Virus record (IMG/VR): IMGVR_UViG_3300049793_000155
Coordinates: 1 to 20,116 of that record
DNA from: a virus
Reading direction: 5' to 3' (one strand)
Length of the DNA: 20,116 nt
The notes beneath the pieces were generated by a model, which was not told the origin of the DNA, did no database searches, and saw nothing but the letters and a program-made list of their open reading frames with translations. Within the stretch, counting starts at the first letter, position 1. Every line of letters begins with the position of its first letter. This document shows positions 820 to 8,599 of this stretch, in pieces. Position numbers and translations under genes: made by a program.

Positions 820-979
820 TAAGTGTAAATACTGTGGTTGTGATGTGCATATATCCTCTTTGGTTATATGTGATAAAACAACCGAGTACCCGTTACCTTA
901 TAAAACGTTGCGAATCAATATTAGAGTGAGAAAGAATACAGAAACTTTTAAGCTCACAACAACAGATTTTGTTCTTTAA
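809..979 (+). CDS. Small cysteine-rich protein, possible zinc ribbon (56 aa)
   Basis: ATG at 809 overlaps the end of the previous gene by 11 bases; TAA at 977-979. The product opens METNKCKYCGCDV and has a further Cys at residue 21, giving Cys at about 6, 9, 11 and 21. A CxxC knuckle so close to the N-terminus suggests a small zinc-binding fold, although the second ligand pair is not a clear CxxC. The rest is basic (RINIRVRKN). It is the last gene before the 176-base gap holding the promoter and structured RNA. Function unknown. Confidence 0.5.
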   Translation: METNKCKYCGCDVHISSLVICDKTTEYPLPYKTLRINIRVRKNTETFKLTTTDFVL

Positions 980-998
980 AATATTTGTTCTATTTTTG
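968..998 (+). promoter_or_regulatory. Bacteroidetes-type promoter for the antirepressor transcript
   Basis: TTTG at 968-971, a 19-base spacer, then TATTTTTG at 991-998. This matches the Bacteroidetes -33/-7 consensus (TTTG or TTG, about 17-23 bases, TAnnTTTG) at every fixed position. Transcription would begin near 1003-1006, giving a leader of about 150 bases before the gene at 1156. The -33 element lies inside the end of the preceding small gene. Confidence 0.6.
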
Positions 999-1030
999 CT
1001 CTCGAACGTTGCACTTACTTCGAGAGTGAA
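995..1030 (+). promoter_or_regulatory. Inverted repeat over the -7 box and predicted start site
   Basis: CTCTCGAA (999-1006) and TTCGAGAG (1019-1026) are perfect inverted 8-mers separated by 12 bases. With G-T wobbles, pairing can extend to 995-998/1027-1030. The left arm sits between the -7 box and the predicted start of transcription, the usual place for a repressor operator. As RNA it would be mostly lost if transcription starts near 1003-1006, so a DNA-level role is more likely. No repressor gene for it lies in the window. Confidence 0.5.
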
Positions 1031-1054
1031 TTAAATCGAAGCAATTAAGATAAA

Positions 1055-1126
1055 CTAGGATGGTCAGTATAAACCGTAAGGCTGACGGCTTTCTACACTC
1101 GTGTAGGTGCGACGTTCACATCCTAG
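1055..1126 (+). ncRNA. C4-like antisense RNA (72-nt cloverleaf) in the antirepressor leader
   Basis: A closing stem pairs CTAGGATG (1055-1062) with CATCCTAG (1119-1126). It encloses two hairpins: GTCAG/CTGAC (1063-1067/1082-1086), flush with the closing stem and holding an inner CC-GTAA-GG, and CTACA/TGTAG (1093-1097/1102-1106) with loop CTCG. The segment 1107-1118 is unpaired and complementary to the start-codon region of the downstream gene. A cloverleaf RNA of about 77 nt, made from the leader of the ant mRNA and pairing around the ant ribosome-binding site, is the known design of C4 RNA in phages P1 and P7. The structure and complementarity are seen here; assignment to the C4 family is inference. 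It cannot be a tRNA: there is no T-stem. Confidence 0.6.
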
Positions 1127-1155: not shown

Positions 1156-1677
1156 ATGAACGTCGTAAAAGAAAACAAGGCGATGAGCCTAACAGTAACG
1201 GAAGGATTAACCGTTCAAATTATCCCAAATCCCCAACATGAATTTTTAATGGATTCAAAACAAGTAGCTTTAGGCTATGGTGTTTCTTATGGAAATATCA
1301 GAGAGCACAAGCGGGTTAATGATGAGTTTATTGAAGGTAAACACTTTTTAATAGGTGTCAGAATTTCTGACAGCGAACCTAATAATAAAGTTTATTGGAC
1401 TAAACGAGGCATTGTGCGTTTAGGTTTCTTTATCAAAAGCAAAAACGCTAAGTTATTTCGAGATTGGGCAGAGGATTTAATCATCAATAAACTAGGGGAA
1501 CAAACTACTTTATTTGATTTGCAACCTAAGCTATTAAACGGTAAGCGCTTGTATAATGGCAACAGGCTTACACCCGCTCGTATGGTTGATATTTTACATG
1601 AAGTATGTAAAATAGAAGATGCTCAGTTACGCGCTACCATTAGCAATAAATTGAAAGGAGGTAGCTATGGAAATTGA
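1156..1677 (+). CDS. Phage antirepressor-like protein (KilA-N/ORF6N/Bro-N-like)
   Basis: A 173-residue protein from ATG 1156. Residues about 28-112 look like the N-terminal domain of phage antirepressors and Bro/KilA-N/ORF6N proteins: a helix-turn-helix-like segment (KQVALGYGVSYGNIREHKR), an EGKHFL turn, then the hallmark WTKRGIVRLGFFIKS and FRDWAEDLI. The C-terminal part is helical and may form oligomers. In phages of this kind the protein titrates or displaces the lysogeny repressor, or binds DNA directly. Its mRNA has a long structured leader with its own promoter and a C4-like antisense RNA, the control arrangement of the P1/P7 ant gene, which supports the antirepressor reading. It overlaps the next small gene by 11 bases. 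The family call comes from motifs only. Confidence 0.65.
   Translation: MNVVKENKAMSLTVTEGLTVQIIPNPQHEFLMDSKQVALGYGVSYGNIREHKRVNDEFIEGKHFLIGVRISDSEPNNKVYWTKRGIVRLGFFIKSKNAKLFRDWAEDLIINKLGEQTTLFDLQPKLLNGKRLYNGNRLTPARMVDILHEVCKIEDAQLRATISNKLKGGSYGN
1157..1167 (+). promoter_or_regulatory. Predicted target of the C4-like RNA at the antirepressor start codon
   Basis: TGAACGTCG (1157-1165) is the exact reverse complement of CGACGTTCA (1110-1118) in the leader RNA. One G-U and one A-U pair extend this to 11 base pairs (1108-1118 with 1157-1167). The site contains the last two bases of the ATG and the next three codons, so pairing would cover the initiation region. Confidence 0.55.
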
Positions 1678-5910: not shown

Positions 5911-5991
5911 CGGTTAACCACCATAACGGTTACTAAGTGAAACTAATGGAATGCCTCTTCGTAGGCATCGGCGCAAAGGTTTCACTTTTTT
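5911..5991 (+). ncRNA. Candidate small RNA, antisense to the portal-tail intergenic mRNA
   Basis: The gap 5884-5989 holds a structured segment. AAGTGAAAC (5935-5943) pairs with GTTTCACTT (5979-5987), a perfect 9-bp stem. It encloses a second hairpin, ATGCCT/AGGCAT (5951-5956/5963-5968) with loop CTTCGT. On the + strand the outer stem is followed by a T run (5986-5991), as in an intrinsic terminator, and a promoter match lies upstream at 5877-5905. Together these predict an RNA of about 80 nt. On the minus strand the structure lacks a T run, so it would not end the operon transcript but could fold in it. The exact 5' end is a guess. Confidence 0.35.
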
Positions 5992-8599
5992 ATTTTCTAT
6001 TAATTAATACCCCTCTTCTTGTAATATCCCTTAGTTGTTTATACTTACCGGTTCCGTCAACTTTTGATGCGTACATTGTCCAATCATTAGGTTCATCAAC
6101 AGGGTAAGAAAATACAACAGGTTGCCCATTGTAATATTTTATATATCGCTTATAGGTTCTAATAATACCTGAAGGCGTTTTTTGTTTAGTCATCCAAACT
6201 TCATCAGCATTTTCAAGTATATCTTTTGTATTATTAATATACTTCCATCTGTCCTGGTCAGGATGATCTTCCACAACATGGTTCCATCTATCTGTAAAAT
6301 CCCAGTCTAAACCATCAATACTCTTTGCTGTTTTAGTTGCACCATTCCATTGTTCTAAAGCCTCAGCTTCGGTAGCTGCTTGTGTAAATTCGGGAAGTCC
6401 TTTTTTAGATAAGATAGTTTCGGGCGATGGCATATTATAATTTTCTTCAGCCATTAATTCTACTTGCTTGTTTACTCCAGTCTTGAACTGTTTTACCTTA
6501 TCAAAATATGGATGTTCATCTTCGTTAAACGCTACATGATCTATACCCACATTCTTTTTAAAATAGGGTTTTAAAGCAGGGCTTTCGCTAAACTGATGTG
6601 CCATGTCGCGATTCAATTGTGTTGCTCCCTGAGCGGGTATTACTGTACATCTACAGTTCCAATCATTAGGTGGGTATATCTTACCCCACAGTGGGTCATT
6701 TGATGGTAAAATAGTACCATCTAAAACAGCGTGGGCTTTCCGTACACGACTATCGCCAACAGTTCTATATTCTAACATATCATATTGCTGAAGCTTTGTC
6801 CACTTGTTTCCCATTTGTCCCATAGCCACGGCGCTTTTATACTCCGTGTTTAAATATACGTCGTTAAATTCCTCATCTGTTTGTACTACTTTATCTCTGA
6901 ACGTACCGTAATTCACTGATTCGCCTTTATCATCTTTTAAAGATTTGGAGTACTCTGATAGCATTGTTAAGCTTTTAGCAGCGCTAAAGGCATAGATATT
7001 ATTTTTAAACTTGTCAAATAACTTTGCTTGTGGATTATCTACACTGAAACTTTTTAAACCAATGCCTTCAGCAACCGCATCACTTAGTTTTTTCGCAACA
7101 TCAAAATAGTAACCGTCATGTATTTGTCCATCCTTTAATTCTCCATTAAAAACCTTTTTAATGAAGTCATCATTCACTGGCTTGTTTCCAGCTAATTTAA
7201 TTAGTTTAGCAGTGTTATGTTTACAACACTCATCAGTTAAGTATAAATTTTTTAGCGACGCTTTTATATCAGCCCCTGTCGCTTTCGGGGCTCTCAAAAA
7301 AAGTCCGACGTCCCGCAGTTTTGTTAAGAGATCAGGTAATGACATTTGTAAGGCGCTGGCATCCGCTGCCTTCTTTGCTGCCATAGCTTCTTTTTGCGCA
7401 TCATAATCATCAGGCTTTTCAATGCCATACGTTTCATAGAAGTAATCATCGCTCATTGGCAATCCCACTTCGTTTTTCAAACGGATATCATTATTTAATT
7501 TAGTGCTTACGACGGTGGGATCATCTTCCTGATCCTGGTCTTTTACTAAAAACTTTCCTCCCGGCTCGAGTAGTCCTTGAGTCTCTAGCATCTTTAATAG
7601 TCGCTTGTTTAATAAGCGCCTAACAAATTTAATATCACTTTTATTAATATCGTTTTCAGTGCCTGCATGTACAGTTGCTTGTGCCTGTCCGCTACTTGCG
7701 CTGCTCTCGGTTGTTTCTGTTTGACCTACTAAAAGAATACTGAGAGCATCATTACAAATGCCAATAATACCTTTATAAATCTCTCCTGTTGGATTATTAG
7801 AACCGCCTTGTAAGAAAGTTAATTCCGTTCCGGCAGGTCTTACAATTTGCCCACCGCTTCCCATATCATTTAAAGCTTTTAATAAAGATAATCTTTGGTC
7901 TTCATCAAATCCATCCCACACAGCATCAATTAATGGTTGCCCGAATACCTCTGCAAATTGTGCCCAATCACTTAAACTACCACGTTTGAAAATAACATAC
8001 TGAGCAGCTACCATTAATAAACCTAAGTCGGTTTCATCTCCGGCTTCTAAAATAGTATCAGCATAAACGCCTTCACGAATATTGATGCCTGCATCTCCTG
8101 TTTGCTCAGTTGAGATCATTCCCTTACTTGGACGCATGTGTTTGCGTGGAATTAAATAAACTCCGAAAGTACCATCAGCATAAAAGTCTAACTCTAGCAT
8201 GGTATAACCCCAAAGTTTCGCCTTCAGCATTTCACTAGTTACCAATTCAAAATCAGGCGTGTCGATCCAGTCCGTAACCCATTGTACTTCCTGTCCATTT
8301 TTGTCTAGGTAAGTCCATTCGATATTAGTTACACCCATGATTCGTTTTTCATATACAGAGCGAAGGTGTGCATCGCTTGATAAGAAATCCGCATACATGT
8401 CATATAACTCAGTCCGTCTTGGAACCATTGCTTCTGCTGTTCGTATAGCAGTTAGCATTGTTGCTATGTCTTGTGAGCGCCTGTATAGAGGTCTGATTGT
8501 TAATTGTTGAATTAACATCGGTCGTTCTTTTCCTTCAGCATCAGTTTTAGACTGGGATACATATCCAATAGGATTTGTATGGTTATTTTGTTTCGCCAT
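5990..8599 (-). CDS. Portal (DUF935, Mu gp29-like) fused to MuF head protein plus C-terminal nuclease-like domain
   Basis: An 869-residue fusion. Residues 1 to about 430 are a DUF935 portal: IATMLTAIRTAE, YADFLSSDAHLRSVYEKR, GYTMLELDFY, the TETTESSASSGQAQ stretch and the DPTVVS segment. Residues about 590-665 are a MuF domain with the hallmark YRTVGDSRVRKAHAVLDG, DPLWGKIYPPNDWNCRC. Residues about 756-869 form a further domain with His774 (RWNHVVEDHP), a charged strand (GIIRTYKRYIKYYNG), PVVFSYPVD and a final KYKQLRDITRRGVL, resembling BECR-fold (Barnase/EndoU/colicin/RelE-like) nuclease domains attached to phage structural proteins. In Mu, portal and F are separate. The portal forms the DNA channel; MuF proteins are minor head proteins that can carry attached domains into the virion and perhaps the host. 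Confidence 0.85.
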   Translation of the reverse strand: MAKQNNHTNPIGYVSQSKTDAEGKERPMLIQQLTIRPLYRRSQDIATMLTAIRTAEAMVPRRTELYDMYADFLSSDAHLRSVYEKRIMGVTNIEWTYLDKNGQEVQWVTDWIDTPDFELVTSEMLKAKLWGYTMLELDFYADGTFGVYLIPRKHMRPSKGMISTEQTGDAGINIREGVYADTILEAGDETDLGLLMVAAQYVIFKRGSLSDWAQFAEVFGQPLIDAVWDGFDEDQRLSLLKALNDMGSGGQIVRPAGTELTFLQGGSNNPTGEIYKGIIGICNDALSILLVGQTETTESSASSGQAQATVHAGTENDINKSDIKFVRRLLNKRLLKMLETQGLLEPGGKFLVKDQDQEDDPTVVSTKLNNDIRLKNEVGLPMSDDYFYETYGIEKPDDYDAQKEAMAAKKAADASALQMSLPDLLTKLRDVGLFLRAPKATGADIKASLKNLYLTDECCKHNTAKLIKLAGNKPVNDDFIKKVFNGELKDGQIHDGYYFDVAKKLSDAVAEGIGLKSFSVDNPQAKLFDKFKNNIYAFSAAKSLTMLSEYSKSLKDDKGESVNYGTFRDKVVQTDEEFNDVYLNTEYKSAVAMGQMGNKWTKLQQYDMLEYRTVGDSRVRKAHAVLDGTILPSNDPLWGKIYPPNDWNCRCTVIPAQGATQLNRDMAHQFSESPALKPYFKKNVGIDHVAFNEDEHPYFDKVKQFKTGVNKQVELMAEENYNMPSPETILSKKGLPEFTQAATEAEALEQWNGATKTAKSIDGLDWDFTDRWNHVVEDHPDQDRWKYINNTKDILENADEVWMTKQKTPSGIIRTYKRYIKYYNGQPVVFSYPVDEPNDWTMYASKVDGTGKYKQLRDITRRGVLINRK

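Follow-up and report, generated by a model that had tools for sequence, protein, structure and literature searches.

The window (the whole stretch of DNA analysed here, identical to a virus record of 20,116 bases) carries Mu-type structural genes, namely those for a portal-Mu F-like fusion protein, a terminase and a capsid. The gene at 5990-8599 on the minus strand joins portal, Mu F-like domain and a C-terminal PBECR2 nuclease-like domain in one fusion protein. From the promoter type described below and from the relatives, we infer a Bacteroidota host for this Mu-like phage. In a longer record of a relative (L114, record G010), a divergent CI-like repressor gene, a MuA-like transposase gene (whose rve match was weak) and a MuB-like AAA ATPase gene lie upstream of the antirepressor-like gene (ant), a gene order that, judged from the sequence, marks this stretch as the early region of a temperate, Mu-like phage. 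The leader in the window is about 155 nt long and is flanked by a block of small genes and by ant (1156-1677, plus strand). The product of ant, a Bro-N-like protein of 173 aa, matched six anti-repressor families of PHROG, phrog_373 being the best (E 2.9e-6), while its match to Pfam Bro-N (E 0.04) was below the cut-off and no KilAC/ANT domain was found in it. Ant encodes the N-terminal Bro-N-like part only; its putative antirepressor activity is assigned by family resemblance, and it probably ends the dormancy of the phage. After ant come a lipoprotein-like gene (1832-2400, phrog_1848) and then a strong intrinsic terminator (AGCCACTCA-TTGAGTGGCTTTTTTT).

Leader elements and their complementarities

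A predicted promoter of the Bacteroidetes type (968-998, plus strand) was read upstream of the leader as TTTG at 968-971, a spacing of 19 nt and TATTTTTG, that is TAnnTTTG, at 991-998. A scan for E. coli-type promoters gave at best a 9/12 match, at another place. The original prediction of a cloverleaf lying between a promoter and an antirepressor-like gene thus describes the locus correctly. Just 3' of the promoter is a hairpin (999-1026, plus strand) formed by CTCTCGAA (999-1006) and TTCGAGAG (1019-1026), so that the feature begins about 4 nt earlier than position 1003, where its start had been placed. This 5' hairpin encloses seqA (1004-1018, plus strand, GAACGTTGCACTTAC), a near-copy of the start of ant and an upstream target copy like a1b1 of phage P1. 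Since the TAnnTTTG box lies 2-5 nt 5' of seqA in most related leaders, seqA is predicted to be the 5' end of the RNA. The 3' arm of the hairpin has an alternative partner (CTTCGA at 1018-1023 with TCGAAG at 1036-1041), and similar hairpin rearrangements are visible in related leaders.

The cloverleaf spans 72 nt (1055-1126, plus strand), an extent that had been predicted and that was borne out by the fold, by covariation in relatives and by a match of the model R1 described below. It consists of the closing stem P1 (1055-1062/1119-1126), which is a perfect helix of 8 bp, P2 (1063-1068/1081-1086) and P3 (1092-1097/1102-1107); P1 and P2 stood as originally drawn, and P3 had to be moved from 1093-1106. 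The fold has a predicted energy of -22.7 kcal/mol against -16.4 ± 2.5 kcal/mol for shuffles (z = -2.48, with 2 of 200 shuffles as good), and by itself this energy is only moderately better than chance. A tRNA or tmRNA was ruled out as the identity of the cloverleaf, none being found by ARAGORN.

Eight bases between P3 and the 3' strand of P1 (1111-1118, GACGTTCA) are unpaired in the cloverleaf, and this stretch (GACGUUCA) is the exact complement of bases 2-9 of ant (1157-1164, UGAACGUC). The whole antisense segment, seqB (1103-1118, plus strand), has two partners. Through 1108-1118 it pairs with seqC (1157-1167, plus strand, UGAACGUCGUA), the downstream target that begins with the U of the AUG and reaches into codon 4, in a helix of 11 pairs including G-U (predicted energy -16.8 kcal/mol), and through 1103-1117 it pairs with seqA at 1004-1018 in a helix of 15 bp, likewise including G-U (-22.6 kcal/mol). 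These complementarities to the start codon and to the 5' hairpin, which were absent from the original prediction, are the core of the feature. A possible second pairing of GAGTG (1024-1028, plus strand) to CACTC in the P3 region (1096-1100) is weak and could be due to chance.

Covariation and co-change among related leaders

Homologues were collected from IMG/VR contigs and from genomes including those of Winogradskyella and Maribacter, among them W. psychrotolerans D3R19 and Maribacter sp. ACAM166 (leaders L014 and L015); a DNA similarity search of the leader in the phage collection gave nothing useful. About 40 distinct leaders of homologous antirepressor genes from Mu-like Bacteroidota phages showed the same triple of seqA, a cloverleaf with seqB, and seqC at the start codon, with differing sequences that change together. 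One such locus, with the same Bacteroidota-type promoter and leader and a 71% identical antirepressor, is on a contig labelled as a Patescibacteria MAG (L012, JAQWDY010000010.1), which may be a mis-binned phage contig. Two homologous antirepressors (L025 and L044) are preceded by another leader fold (GCGGCAGCC...GGGCTGCCG), which may be another type of the same switch.

The decisive evidence for the predicted cloverleaf is comparative, that is, covariation and the match of the window by a model built from 16 relatives. The original prediction had proposed a search for covarying pairs in homologous leaders, and in the alignment of these 16 relatives 20 of the 27 cloverleaf pairs have changes on both sides, with 91% of cells paired versus 65% in shuffles and 34-44% when the partners were slid. 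The covariation score is 0.652 against 0.206 for shuffled alignments, and it is 0.714 on 36 sequences. A covariance model made from the phage leaders of the same 16 relatives, with the window excluded (R1), matched the window at 1048-1136 with 20.2 bits (E 0.0099 over 223 kb) and had no second match within it; the closest relative of the window (L001) scored 34.7 bits, and compensating changes between these two are found in all of P1, P2 and P3. R1 had one match among 395 Bacteroidota genomes and the antirepressor profile likewise one, suggesting that few of the sampled genomes carry a prophage of this type. One chromosomal R1 match (L117:1197-1586, minus strand) lies where a 93-aa gene begins; the first codons of this gene (ATGACAAAAG) correspond to an antisense stretch of the same kind (TTTGTCACACC), and the phage-type leader may therefore control other genes too.

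The complementarities are specific to each locus. Among 31 non-redundant leaders, the mean score of seqB with its own seqC was 21.8 versus 12.1 ± 2.5 between loci, and that of seqA with its own seqB was 31.3 versus 15.1 between loci; neither sum was reached in 20,000 permutations (p < 5e-5). The start of ant in the window pairs best with its own leader, none of the leaders of 78 other loci being as good. When all three segments were tested jointly, 37 of 79 loci passed, including nearly all with this leader type, compared with 1.2-1.3% of random triples. In most leaders seqC begins at the U of the AUG, with the exceptions of L008, L023 and L040, in which the target lies just 5' of the annotated start or at an alternative ATG before it.

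A tail resembling that of an intrinsic terminator, with a T-run after the closing stem, was found by a simple rule in 21 of the 31 leaders, compared with 9% of shuffles. Such tails in many relatives are what would be expected if the element were simply an attenuator of transcription or a terminator hairpin, and complementary to the start codon by chance. We consider this extremely improbable, and as a complete explanation it is refuted by the joint test and by the own- versus cross-locus scores: complementarity at both sites is far above the cross-locus controls, its position is fixed at the AUG, and no intrinsic terminator was found in the window's own leader. The release of a small RNA in the window would therefore need processing, the route known from P1 (PMC5320573) and the one on which the window would likewise rely. 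In the many relatives that have it, a terminator at the end of the cloverleaf would give a longer primary RNA. P4 CI RNA acts by terminating transcription prematurely.

Relation to C4, CI, c4-2 and IsrK RNAs

The RNA had been proposed to be of the C4 type, and the layout, the covariation in all stems and the three pairing sites speak for this assignment, while the Rfam C4 model does not. This model (RF01695), which the original prediction had named as a check on the leader, does score on P1 and P4, the P4 match being the CI locus, but it matched neither the window nor 11 related genomes and records at E values up to 10. Neither the c4-a1b1 model (RF03163) nor isrK (RF01394) matched the window, and permissive thresholds for Rfam gave only chance-level matches in the leader. 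The c4-2 model (RF02944), which shares clan CL00128 with C4, gave no score in the window either, but it matched the leader of L063 with 44.6 bits (cut-off 41); among 35 related genomes or records, one was above the cut-off and 11 more were below it. Reciprocally, R1 detected canonical c4-2 RNAs at 25-33 bits, compared with 20.2 bits for the window. Hence, on these profile matches, the RNA in the window appears to be a far-diverged relative within the c4-2/C4 clan; intermediates connect it to c4-2, whereas its own score does not make it a member.

The architecture can be compared piece by piece. As in C4, the antisense occupies the unpaired stretch between P3 and the 3' strand of P1 (1111-1118 in the window), and complementary target copies lie upstream and downstream, like a1b1 and a2b2, in the window and in about 40 relatives. 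As in the CI scheme of P4 (PMC4825925), seqB is complementary to seqA upstream and to seqC downstream. The order of promoter, upstream target (a1b1 or seqA), cloverleaf with antisense, and downstream target (a2b2 or seqC) is thus shared with both C4 of P1/P7 and CI of P4. In the P1 record, a1 and b1, C4, and then a2 and b2 are annotated in this order before icd-ant, and when we applied the same pairing test to P1, CTGTCAA of C4 paired with TTGACAG of a1, at the same position in the cloverleaf as in the window; P1 C4 pairs a second time, using the loop of P3. Mature C4 has about 77 nt after processing by RNase P and represses in trans. From the equality of layout with P1 and P4 and from the position within P1 C4, we infer that the cloverleaf RNA occludes the start codon of ant. 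Differences are seen as well: the target here is the AUG and first codons, whereas in P1 it consists of sites upstream of icd (a2, b2); seqA here is at the 5' end of the transcript; and the cloverleaf of many relatives carries a terminator, whereas P1 and P4 have a terminator-like isrK match upstream of C4.

With c4-2 the phage leaders share P1 with an internal loop, P2 with a GGAAAC-like loop, P3 and an unpaired stretch preceding the 3' strand of P1. The family was reportedly described by Weinberg in 2017, and in the available part of its Rfam entry it is an sRNA with no target stated. Canonical c4-2 was matched in 10 of 395 sampled Bacteroidota genomes (9 above the cut-off) and occurs in 2-6 copies in a few Bacteroidota chromosomes. 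In the canonical loci (L123-L142) it lies between ordinary genes, at about 1501-1580, and is followed by the gene of a conserved 77-aa protein, which had no match in Pfam, NCBIfam or PADLOC and no significant one in PHROG. Like the phage cloverleaf, most of the inspected c4-2 RNAs have a copy of a short site on either side, the downstream one adjoining a start codon. Their P3 loop is the complement of both sites, and where the loop differs between c4-2 copies the sites differ with it, indicating that the logic of two targets around one antisense extends to the wider family. The antisense site is thus mainly the P3 loop in canonical chromosomal c4-2 but the unpaired stretch 3' of P3 in the phage leaders, and the gene behind it encodes the 77-aa protein without known family in the former and the antirepressor-like protein in the latter. 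In several canonical copies we observed that the upstream target has its own ATG, opening a short ORF that runs through the c4-2 RNA.

The original prediction expected the finding to widen the range of C4 RNA beyond proteobacterial phages, and a survey of 2010 listed C4 under "Proteobacteria, phages" (PMC2864571). This expectation was weakened, because c4-2, from the same clan, already matches Bacteroidota genomes as well as related leaders. What is new here is the predicted targets and the design, the kind of RNA itself being known.

The leader also resembles that of IsrK of Gifsy-1 (RF01394), an RNA from the leader of an anti-repressor operon in which read-through of a terminator and refolding through complementary segments take place (PMC4825925). 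By analogy, a short leader RNA might bind and open the read-through mRNA and so switch antirepressor translation on, since IsrK activates translation in trans. We regard such activation as improbable here; seqB lies directly over the AUG and the first codons and should block rather than open translation, so that direct occlusion of the start codon is predicted, and, as noted above, the isrK model found nothing in the window.

Proposed control of ant by the leader RNA

Immunity by antisense RNA as in C4 and CI is rare among viruses and was worked out in coliphages. In the window, a leader RNA with the logic of C4/CI is likely, from the sequence comparisons above, to keep the phage antirepressor off, presumably acting in trans after processing. 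Transcription would start at or just 5' of seqA, and the leader would fold, as its sequence and covariation suggest, into the 5' hairpin and a cloverleaf that displays seqB unpaired. By its complementarity and co-change, seqB would pair with the AUG and first codons of ant, and initiation would be blocked. In a lysogen, the same promoter would supply cloverleaf RNA, through processing in leaders of the window type and, in about two thirds of the relatives, through transcripts that end at the cloverleaf; the targets of this RNA in trans would be ant mRNA and seqA of the nascent transcript. Alternatively, seqA of the nascent transcript may capture seqB in cis, breaking the cloverleaf and the terminator and freeing the AUG. 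In a cell that contains no cloverleaf RNA, for instance a naive cell just infected, ant would be expressed; where such RNA is present and occupies seqA and the start codon, the leader would terminate or stay untranslated.

The predicted energies are compatible with such a refolding. When the two halves of the leader were folded apart in a two-state comparison, hairpin plus cloverleaf and seqA:seqB came out close, with a median difference of -1.3 kcal/mol and +2.7 kcal/mol for the window (the value for L027 is an artefact of a misplaced seqA). The close energies and the T-runs together suggest a seqA/seqB switch. Balanced energies, the order of seqA, seqB and seqC and the position of seqA at the extreme 5' end are also what a switch acting only in cis needs. 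In that case seqA:seqB as anti-sequestor and seqB:seqC as sequestor would exclude each other within one mRNA, the outcome being decided by kinetics, a protein or a ligand, and no small RNA would act in trans. The same complementarities fit this scheme, as does the finding that seqA:seqB is predicted to be stronger than seqB:seqC in 35 of 39 leaders. We nevertheless think it unlikely, because many leaders have a terminator after the cloverleaf, which would set free an RNA that includes seqB and lacks seqC, because an elaborate, covarying cloverleaf that displays seqB would not be needed, and because P1 C4 and P4 CI, the known RNAs of related layout, work in trans (PMC5320573, PMC4825925). One point against the preferred reading, in which the cloverleaf RNA acts in trans, is that a short RNA of full length would contain seqA as well as seqB and might be self-silencing.

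As seqB and its targets vary from phage to phage, each version would mark out an immunity group. We found two leaders (L004 and L032) that are otherwise different and yet have seqA (GCATGACATTCATA) and the target in common, which would place their phages in one such group. Tentatively, and with somewhat less than even confidence, we propose that the Bacteroidota phages and the free-standing chromosomal c4-2 cassettes share a general, rapidly re-targetable module of antisense immunity, in which the antisense covers the start codon, in keeping with hosts that make little use of Shine-Dalgarno sequences, and a decoy copy of the start at the 5' terminus has the roles of anti-antisense and antiterminator; a single leader RNA would then be immunity factor, sensor and attenuator at the same time. 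With the aligned leaders, a target can be predicted for c4-2, its variable part has an explanation and about 40 natural specificities are at hand, and RNA-based immunity groups and prophage-phage exclusion in Bacteroidota would become predictable from sequence.
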